NCBI GenBank assembly: GCA_020161245.1
Contig: JAIUOK010000001.1
Location: 1 to 64,000, forward strand
From: Actinomycetota bacterium
Lineage (GTDB): Bacteria > Actinomycetota > Actinomycetes > S36-B12 > CAIYMF01
Length of the DNA: 64,000 nt
Reading direction: 5' to 3'
Shown: positions 27,147 to 62,835 of the stretch, piece after piece
How positions within the stretch are numbered: position 1 is the stretch's first letter
How the letters are laid out: each line of letters starts with the position of its first letter
Translations under genes and position numbers: made by a program
Notes under the pieces: model-generated
Told to the model about the DNA's origin: nothing
Databases searched by the model: none
What the model saw: the letters and a program-made list of their open reading frames with translations, nothing else

Positions 27147-27207
27147 GGGCCTAGCGGCCGAGCCTGCTGGGCCTAGCGGCCGAGCCTGCTGGGCCTAGCG
27201 GCCGAAC
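27147..27207. repeat. Tandem 22-base repeat covering a stop codon
   Basis: Two exact 22-base copies (27147-27168, 27169-27190) beginning GGGCCTAGCGGCCGAGCCTG are followed by a partial third (27191-27207), which contains the stop codon of the minus-strand microprotein gene. It looks like slippage or duplication of the gene's 3' end. Two extra in-frame-like stop copies therefore trail the gene. Confidence 0.7.
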
Positions 27208-27353
27208 AGCTTGCCGAACAGGCCGGTCTTCTGCTCCGGTGGGCACGCGCAGCGCTGCGACTTCGGCACGCCGCGCATCACCTGGTCGACGTGCTGGCCG
27301 CAGCCGGCCCACGTCGCCTTGCCGCACCGCTTGCAGGTCACCTGTCGGCACAT
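27195..27353 (-). CDS. Cysteine-rich microprotein A
   Basis: This 52-residue protein reads MCRQVTCKRCGKATWAGCG, continues HVDQVMRGVPKSQRCAC and ends with a basic hydrophobic KTGLFGKLFGR. C2, C7, C10 and C18 with a CACP near 35-38 could form a zinc-ribbon-like or copper/thiol site. GAAGGAG precedes the ATG. It is paralogous to the divergent protein at 27455-27571, sharing a core of MC-TC-RCGK-TW-GCG-HVD-V-VP-QRC-C. Similar short proteins occur in many actinobacteria without assigned function. The palindrome between the two genes suggests common control. Confidence 0.75.
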   Translation of the reverse strand: MCRQVTCKRCGKATWAGCGQHVDQVMRGVPKSQRCACPPEQKTGLFGKLFGR

Positions 27354-27381
27354 GTCGAGCTGCTCCTTCTCGGGGGATCGT

Positions 27382-27419
27382 GGTCAGAGCATATACCCCC
27401 GGGGGTATATGCTCTGACC
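27382..27419. promoter_or_regulatory. 38-bp perfect palindrome with CsoR/CstR-like core
   Basis: The halves 27382-27400 and 27401-27419 are exact reverse complements. The core ATACCCCCGGGGGTAT resembles operators of the CsoR/CstR/FrmR regulator family, which have G/C tracts flanked by AT. It lies 28 bases from one microprotein start and 35 from the other, so it should overlap both promoters or leaders. No CsoR-type gene is in the window. Confidence 0.65.
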
Positions 27420-27454
27420 CGCACCCCCACCCGAGAGACTCCGAGGAGAACCCC

Positions 27455-27571
27455 ATGTGCAGCCCCGCCACCTGCAGCCGCTGCGGCAAGATCACCTGGT
27501 CCGGCTGCGGCATGCACGTCGACATGGTGCTGGCCCGCGTGCCCGAGCAGCAGCGCTGCACCTGCCGCTGA
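27455..27571 (+). CDS. Cysteine-rich microprotein B
   Basis: This 38-residue protein reads MCSPATCSRCGKITWSGCG and ends HVDMVLARVPEQQRCTCR. Cysteines lie at 2, 7, 10, 18, 35 and 37. A GAGGAG site stands upstream of the ATG. It shares about two thirds of its residues with microprotein A but lacks the C-terminal KTGLFGKLFGR tail. Conservation of a short core in two divergent copies argues for selection at the protein level. Metal or persulfide binding is a hypothesis drawn from the cysteines and the nearby operator-like palindrome. Confidence 0.75.
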   Translation: MCSPATCSRCGKITWSGCGMHVDMVLARVPEQQRCTCR

Positions 27572-27647
27572 CACCGGCTCTCGGCACCTGGGTCGGCCGG
27601 CCGTCCGGCGGCCTCGCCACCAAACAGGCAGCAGGCCCGGTACCTCG

Positions 27648-27725
27648 CGTCCAGCGCTCCCCCGTGCTGCGCTGGACGCCGGTCTCCGGGCCTGCCGGGC
27701 TCAGCCTGCTGCATCCGGAGACCGG
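27648..27725. terminator. Two adjacent hairpins in the 27572-27813 gap
   Basis: A 9-base stem (CGTCCAGCG, 27648-27656 with 27670-27678) is followed at once by an 11-base stem (CCGGTCTCCGG, 27679-27689 with 27715-27725). The gap lies between convergent genes and holds no supported gene, so these may be bidirectional terminators. Confidence 0.4.
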
Positions 27726-27813: not shown

Positions 27814-28809
27814 TCAGCCCAGTCGGGCTGGGTTGGCCTCGAGGAGCTGCCAGCCCAGCCGCGTCGGCCGGTACAGCACCTCCCGGCCGTGGCGCTCCGA
27901 GCTCACGAGCCCGGCCTGGCGCAGCACGCCGAGATGCTCGCTGACCGTCCCCATCGACATCGACGCGGCGCGCGAGATCTCCGAGGTCGTGCGCGGCGAC
28001 GTCGTCCAGCGCAGCACTGCGGCGCGCGTACGCCCGAGCAGGGCGGCGAGGCCGTCGTCGCCGGGGTCGAGCCCCTGGTCGAAGACCAGCCCCGCCGAGC
28101 GGGTGGAGAAGACCAGCCAGGTGTGGTGGGGGTCGTACGCGGCGAGGCCCGCGTAGGGCGCGTTGAACACCGTCGGCACGAGCAGCAGCCCGCTGCCGGT
28201 GCGGTCGTAGCGCTGCGGCGTGCGGGTGGGCGACACCACCAGGTCCGCGCCGTCCCAGGTCACCCGCGAGTGCAGGCGCGCGAGCATCGCGCCCATGCCC
28301 GCCTCGCCCGCGACCGTCGTCCACCACGCGATGTCGGCCTCGAGGAAGCGCAGCATCGTCGGCCACCACGGCGCGACGAGCACGTCCCATGCCAGCTGCA
28401 GGGCCTCGCCGAGCAGCTCGCCCGGGCGGGACGACTCGAGCAGCGGGCGCATCGCCTCCGGCGGATGCGGGAGGCGCTGCGCCATCCACTGCTCGACGTC
28501 GTCGGTCCCGATGCCGCGCAGGTGCTCGACGATGACGGCCACCTCGCCGAAGGAGGTGCCGTCCGGCCGCTCCACCCCGGGCAGGGGGAACCACGGCGGC
28601 ACGAAGCCGTCGAGCGGGATGAGGCCGACGAGCATGCGCAGGAGCGGATCGGACATGCGCGGCGCGACGCCGCGCGCCCAGTCGTCGTAGGGCGACGGCG
28701 AGGCGCGCTGGAAGGTGCGCAGGGCGTGGACGGTCTCGGTGACCTGGGACGTGGCGAACCGCGTCGCGAGGATGTCCTCCCCCGACAGCGTGATGCGGTG
28801 CTCCGCCAC
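27814..28809 (-). CDS. ArsR-type regulator with DUF5937 N-terminal domain
   Basis: This 331-residue protein has an N-terminal DUF5937-like domain (RITLSGEDILATRFATSQV onward) and a C-terminal winged helix (TTSEISRAASMSMGTVSEHL and GLVSSERHGREVLYRPT) of the ArsR family. No metal-binding ELCVC motif is present, so it is probably not a metal sensor. Targets are unknown. GTG 28809 is chosen because GGAAGGGGGC lies upstream. It is divergent from the PhyH-family gene, which is a candidate target. Confidence 0.82.
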   Translation of the reverse strand: MAEHRITLSGEDILATRFATSQVTETVHALRTFQRASPSPYDDWARGVAPRMSDPLLRMLVGLIPLDGFVPPWFPLPGVERPDGTSFGEVAVIVEHLRGIGTDDVEQWMAQRLPHPPEAMRPLLESSRPGELLGEALQLAWDVLVAPWWPTMLRFLEADIAWWTTVAGEAGMGAMLARLHSRVTWDGADLVVSPTRTPQRYDRTGSGLLLVPTVFNAPYAGLAAYDPHHTWLVFSTRSAGLVFDQGLDPGDDGLAALLGRTRAAVLRWTTSPRTTSEISRAASMSMGTVSEHLGVLRQAGLVSSERHGREVLYRPTRLGWQLLEANPARLG

Positions 28810-28950
28810 GCCGTGCCCCCTTCCTGACCTCTCCGGCACCGTAGCGGGCGCATCGGGCGGCCCGCCCGTCGAGCGCCGTCACGGGCCGGGGCTCCCCTAC
28901 GCTCAGGCGGACGCCGGCACCGGGCCGACCGACCCCTCAGGAGGACGCCG

Positions 28951-62803: not shown

Positions 62804-62835
62804 ACGGCACAAGAACCGGCCGGTTCTTGTGCCGT
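62804..62835. terminator. 32-bp perfect palindrome between convergent genes
   Basis: The halves 62804-62819 and 62820-62835 are perfect complements (ACGGCACAAGAACCGG). It lies between the RDD stop (62783) and the HhH stop (62860). It is probably a bidirectional terminator, although a perfect palindrome with no loop could also bind a protein. Confidence 0.65.

Follow-up and report, generated by a model that had tools for sequence, protein, structure and literature searches.

Two divergent cysteine-rich microproteins around a perfect palindrome as probable members of a persulfide-responsive regulon in Actinomycetota

Among the CsoR-family repressors of Actinomycetota, ScCsoR of Streptomyces coelicolor senses sulfane sulfur and represses the genes for a persulfide dioxygenase, a rhodanese, and a sulfite transporter through the operator ATACCn6GGTAT, in which TAC and GTA are eight bases apart (N8) (PMC7533328), whereas the copper-responsive CsoR of S. 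lividans uses TACX9GTA (N9; PMC3902906). The cst operons of Staphylococcus aureus and Enterococcus faecalis (CstA/CstB/SQR/TauE; CoAPR) are under the repressor CstR (PMC5480029, PMC9405070). The known outputs of CstR persulfide sensing are ordinary enzymes and transporters. The locus described here, in a window of 64,000 nucleotides (the whole stretch of DNA analyzed) from an Actinomycetota bacterium, shares with the S. coelicolor circuit the phylum, the N8 operator, a sulfane-sulfur-sensing type of CsoR-family regulator, and the enzyme set, but contains in addition two microproteins; none is described in that circuit, and none was found in 19 sampled genomes of a family presumed to be Streptomyces-like. 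With the cst operons it has in common the repressor class and the regulated functions, namely, persulfide dioxygenase, rhodanese, CoA persulfide reductase, sulfide:quinone oxidoreductase (SQR), and TauE, and we know of no Cys-rich microprotein in the S. aureus or E. faecalis operons. MymT of Mycobacterium tuberculosis, a very small, Cys-rich, copper-responsive protein under the CsoR-family repressor RicR, is similar in size, Cys content, and repressor family; however, the operator spacing and the neighboring genes are here of the sulfur type and not those of copper-sensing RicR/CsoR control. Finally, zinc-ribbon and zinc-knuckle miniproteins share the CxxCG knuckle at a predicted β-hairpin turn and a second Cys/His pair toward the C-terminus, but no sequence or fold match to them was found in Pfam, NCBIfam, or the PDB.

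The two divergent genes predicted by the initial annotation are present, with start codons about 100 nt apart. Microprotein A (52 residues, MCRQVTCKRCGKATWAGCGQHVDQVMRGVPKSQRCACPPEQKTGLFGKLFGR), of the long type with a C-terminal tail, is encoded on the minus strand at 27195-27353, and microprotein B (38 residues, MCSPATCSRCGKITWSGCGMHVDMVLARVPEQQRCTCR), of the short type without a tail, on the plus strand at 27455-27571, each preceded by a Shine-Dalgarno-like sequence (AAGGAG at 27363-27368 on the minus strand, 9 nt before A; GAGGAG at 27443-27448 on the plus strand, 6 nt before B). Their aligned sequences are 61% identical, and A scores 100.7 bits against the family profile, the top score in its genome. 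The KTGLFGKLFGR tail, which had been noticed in A only, is indeed confined to that copy (codons at 27198-27230, minus strand, from the open reading frame; low AF2 confidence); it is a short, conserved motif that follows a variable linker, and the division into long and short types spans the whole family. Between A and B lies a zero-loop palindrome that is perfect over all 38 bp first ascribed to it (27382-27419), with the 16-bp core ATACCCCCGGGGGTAT at 27393-27408. This core is the sole CsoR-like site in the window, and the proposed resemblance to a CsoR/CstR-type operator is borne out by its TAC-N8-GTA ends, a spacing that comparison identifies as CstR-type, and by its G/C-tract palindrome, as in the ScCsoR site. 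A candidate −10 element for B (TATGCT, 27408-27413, plus strand) overlaps the right half of the operator, and its mirror image (27388-27393, minus strand) may serve A, both being read from the sequence; a consensus scan for sigma-70 promoters and terminator scans returned nothing above chance. In the flanking DNA, a 22-bp unit (GGGCCTAGCGGCCGAGCCTGCT) is repeated head-to-tail in three copies at 27147-27212, the imperfect third copy spanning the stop and last codons of A. Beyond B, the segment 27572-27720 folds with a z of −4.3 and contains, between B and the next gene, a strong imperfect hairpin (27631-27695), which is not a classic terminator because it has no T-run. The gene adjoining the pair (27814-28839) encodes a C-terminal ArsR-type helix-turn-helix and shows no sign of belonging to the module.

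When the genome (4.29 Mb) was searched for ATACCCC-N0-6-GGGGTAT, with the same pattern read backwards as a control, exactly five 16-bp ATACCCCnnGGGGTAT sites and no backward match were found, which excludes a chance origin of the palindrome core. Besides the site between A and B, these lie upstream of a CoA-disulfide-reductase/rhodanese fusion gene followed by a CsoR-family gene and a rhodanese gene (C20:31613; loci L004/L002); upstream of a third microprotein gene (MCRPVSCDYCRKTTWAGCGQHVDMVMAHVPTEQRCTCK) followed by genes for an MBL-fold/rhodanese fusion of the persulfide-dioxygenase type, a rhodanese, and TauE (C78:27704); upstream of thioredoxin and rhodanese genes (C78:32161); and upstream of an SQR-like FAD oxidoreductase gene (C4:10084), a name that derives from a profile built from a related locus, Pfam alone giving Pyr_redox_2. 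All five sites thus adjoin sulfur genes or microproteins, and no copper gene was recognized beside any of them. A profile search found three microprotein genes and no others in the genome, each beside such a site; the pair in the window belongs to a three-member set. The regulator, as had been stated, is not in the window. The genome has two CsoR-family genes, one (L001) of the His type beside a CopZ-like gene and the other (L002, contig C20) of the CstR type, with two Cys residues, located downstream of the same type of palindrome. The His diagnostic of copper CsoR, four residues before the second Cys, is present in the former and replaced by Ala or Gly in the latter, whose best PDB match is 7mq1 (entry name csoR), which we take to be a CstR structure. 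The operator of the third microprotein and the persulfide dioxygenase is shared with a divergent TrkA_N-domain gene (L006, 1661-2998), hinting at a link between a potassium channel and sulfur stress.

The spacing of the operator was evaluated by an operator-first comparison of 29 N8 and 30 N9 loci, in which copper genes were recognized solely through P-type ATPase and HMA sequence motifs. Sulfur genes adjoin 15 of the 29 N8 sites but none of the 30 N9 sites, copper genes 1/29 versus 21/30, and the microprotein 6/29 versus 0/30; the regulator is of the His type in 0/10 cases beside N8 sites and in 7/7 beside N9 sites. A single base of spacing thus splits the two classes, TAC-N8-GTA going with sulfur genes and non-His regulators, and TAC-N9-GTA with copper genes and His-type regulators. 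Such a rule would make it possible to assign actinobacterial CsoR-family sites to their signal with no information beyond the sequence. The initial annotation had left open whether the module responds to copper or to persulfide; from the spacing, the regulator type, and the neighboring genes, the choice falls on persulfide, a branch that is strongly supported by comparative evidence, and the copper half of the proposal is not supported. In a Pfam tally, ten N8 loci with no recognized sulfur gene contained, among others, MMPL/MmpS-like, 1-Cys peroxiredoxin, ferritin, and Rv2466c-like genes and no copper ATPase; these genes are possible further members of the regulon.

The suggestion that G/C-tract palindromes should recur upstream of homologs was clearly confirmed. 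Around the best 80 of 453 relatives in bacterial genomes, 887 kb of sequence contained 110 sites, whereas shuffled sequence gave 1.3 and the backward pattern none. Of the 96 microprotein genes there, 55 are preceded by a site at a distance of no more than 300 nt, in most cases 35-45 nt and typically some 39 nt ahead of the start codon. Phylum-wide, among 396 sampled Actinomycetota genomes, the microprotein was found in 64, a number that may be too low because of the first filter used. The neighborhoods in these genomes contain 54 sites in 870 kb (none in the control), and 22 of 75 genes have one shortly upstream, a count that includes two extra loci of the present genome. The other 53 of these 75 members have no close strict site, and many of them stand in line after genes for CoA-disulfide reductase (CoADR), persulfide dioxygenase (PDO), or CstR. 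A strict site occurs in 28 of the 64 genomes with the protein versus 36 of the 332 without it (Fisher p ~4e-9, ignoring relatedness, as do all E-values and Fisher tests given here). Profile searches of the 80 loci identified as neighbors CsoR-family regulators (46), rhodanese (30), CoADR (28), PDO (23), TauE (23), and thioredoxin (22), typically in the orders site-CoADR-CstR-microprotein, site-PDO-microprotein, and site-microprotein-thioredoxin. A CsoR-family gene lies within 12 kb in 46/80 and 31/74 loci of the two samples, compared with an estimated chance of about 1% for one to a few copies per genome, and in all 45 readable CsoR-family neighbors the copper-ligand His is replaced by Ala or Gly. 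The RefSeq annotation of plasmid-borne relatives independently lists a metal-sensitive regulator, rhodanese, DsrE, TauE/SafE, thioredoxin, and MBL proteins. In Rhodococcus jostii RHA1, a 24-bp palindrome precedes the microprotein gene RHA1_RS51140, and the regulator is RHA1_RS43905. In ten of the 64 genomes that encode the microprotein, no CsoR-family gene is present, which indicates that the task of the protein is not tied to CstR in every genome and that other control exists. Carriage as a phage gene was considered and rejected, as a screen of 50,697 phage records yielded a single relative, on an unverified faecal contig, and IMG/VR one more.

Across 163 unique readable members, C2, C7, C10, G17, C18, G19, and H21 are invariant (163/163) and W15 is nearly so, while the C-terminal pair is CxC in 62, CxxH in 97, and CxxxH in 4. 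The family therefore has two conserved Cys/His ligand pairs with C/H exchange, as expected of a zinc ribbon; because metal sites typically show such an exchange at a fixed ligand position, the pattern suggests a metal, probably zinc, site rather than a redox pair. The Met before a Cys is normally removed, and C2 would be the N-terminal residue. AF2 predicts with confidence a 38-residue core (pLDDT ~91) with a hairpin (3-6/13-16) and a helix (22-25), followed by a floppy tail (pLDDT ~55). A hydrophobic and basic tail comparable to that of A, after a variable linker, is found in 108 of 138 long-type members and is absent from short ones, and paralogs with and without it coexist. The 52-residue model had no match among solved folds (Foldseek E ≤ 0.001, VIA-align Z ≥ 2), so that the putative label "zinc ribbon" is based on ligand spacing. 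Searches of the microproteins or region against Pfam, NCBIfam, Rfam, and PDB sequences returned no match, and one against PHROGs a single weak hit at chance level; the family is in neither Pfam nor NCBIfam and was previously unclassified. A literature search revealed no microprotein in sulfane-sulfur systems, no small protein with CstR, and nothing on PTHR34724, presumably the PANTHER name of plant look-alikes.

Taking these results together, it is probable that A and B are both members of the CstR-type regulon and metal-binding proteins, paralogs within a small, probably zinc-binding family. In the resting cell, judging from the operator match, the CstR-type repressor encoded on contig C20 would occupy the palindrome overlapping both divergent promoters and keep A and B silent together. 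By analogy with its regulator class (PMC7533328, PMC9405070), a rise in persulfides or polysulfides would modify the two cysteines of the regulator, which would then leave the DNA. Given the shared sites, A and B would be made along with the sulfide/persulfide oxidation set, that is, SQR, CoA-disulfide reductase, persulfide dioxygenase, rhodaneses, thioredoxin, and the TauE sulfite exporter. In each protein, C7, C10, C35, and C37 (H38 in relatives) would most likely coordinate a metal around which the chain folds, and C2, C18, and H21 would supply additional conserved thiol and imidazole groups. Our leading guess at the specific task, which we hold only tentatively, is a zinc-thiolate protein that scavenges or relays sulfane sulfur in partnership with the rhodanese and dioxygenase enzymes, in which the tail of A may be a docking or membrane-contact motif absent from B. 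The proposal may be widened to a new, actinobacteria-wide zinc-thiolate family that belongs to the core output of persulfide sensing, has been duplicated repeatedly, and supplies a sulfane-sulfur carrier or scavenger besides rhodanese, TusA, and DsrC, its tailed and tail-less forms acting at different sites, but in this full form we regard it as somewhat unlikely.

Other explanations of the same locus differ in the signal or in the task. That a copper CsoR represses a small, metallothionein-like, copper-binding pair in the manner of MymT under RicR would agree with the Cys-rich sequences of A and B, with a site that is G/C-tract palindromic as CsoR sites are, and with the presence of a His-type CsoR gene beside a CopZ-like gene; nevertheless, the window site is N8, a spacing that tracks sulfur genes and non-His regulators, the copper CsoR locus of the same genome bears N9 sites (TACCTCCTGGGGGTA/TACCCCCAGGAGGTA), and no microprotein was found at the 30 N9 sites, so that we consider this highly improbable. 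It is barely credible that the palindrome is a transcription terminator or the end of a mobile element, with A and B incidental to it: although, transcribed into RNA, a perfect 38-bp inverted repeat would form a strong fold (−46 kcal/mol), the repeat is placed between two divergent start codons and not 3′ of stops, no T-run was found at it, and its core is kept upstream of homologs from numerous genera, with outer arms that differ.

If the pair is under CstR, its task may yet be other than scavenging or relaying sulfur. CstR might induce A and B as a zinc buffer against the stripping or precipitation of zinc by sulfide and persulfide; the proteins would then store zinc or pass it on. The seven conserved Cys/His residues and the C-to-H exchange at the last ligand accord with this, as does the zinc-limitation response triggered by sulfide in S. 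aureus (PMC5480029); but the storage capacity would be small, a role beyond storage is suggested by the tail, by the nearly invariant W15, and by G17 and G19, which never vary, and zinc-uptake or efflux genes were not seen as regular neighbors in the annotated plasmid loci, and we consider a buffer unlikely. A low probability is likewise given to an adaptor or regulator, a zinc-finger microprotein that would bind a protein or nucleic acid through its core, and in A through its tail, and tune metabolism under sulfur stress; the short tail conserved behind a variable linker and the coexistence of tailed and tail-less paralogs speak for it, whereas no target is known and the fold matches no known nucleic-acid-binding finger. 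Under the preferred reading, as members of the CstR-type regulon, a conserved protein of about 38-60 residues, often directly under a persulfide operator and below the size reached by most annotation pipelines, points to an overlooked step of sulfur detoxification. As the palindrome matches a switch that many actinobacteria appear to use for reactive-sulfur sensing, the microproteins may be a widespread, overlooked part of the bacterial sulfur-stress response.

The position and length of the operator vary among relatives. Eleven loci in other classes of actinobacteria have the operator directly against the start codon (e.g., TACCCCCTAGGGTATG), an arrangement suggestive of leaderless mRNAs in which the start codon marks the position of the repressor site. 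Within the taxonomic family of the window, several operators are extended, like that at 27382-27419, to inverted repeats of 28-46 bp (L246, 1449; L247, 1451; L242, 1653; L238, 2162; L248, 1425), whose outer arms are wholly different between congeners. The divergent long/short pair around one operator is found again in two further cases, L011 and a congener (L231/L241). The proteins of the two are identical, and the congener may represent the L011 genome itself or a sister of it. The notion that the symmetry merely reflects divergent promoters is weakened by congeners carrying 34-46 bp palindromes with no divergent gene (L246/L247); the extended repeats possibly arise by palindrome perfection through template switching or by selection for symmetry. 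A further perfect zero-loop palindrome, of 32 bp (ACGGCACAAGAACCGGCCGGTTCTTGTGCCGT), is located at 62804-62835 of the window.
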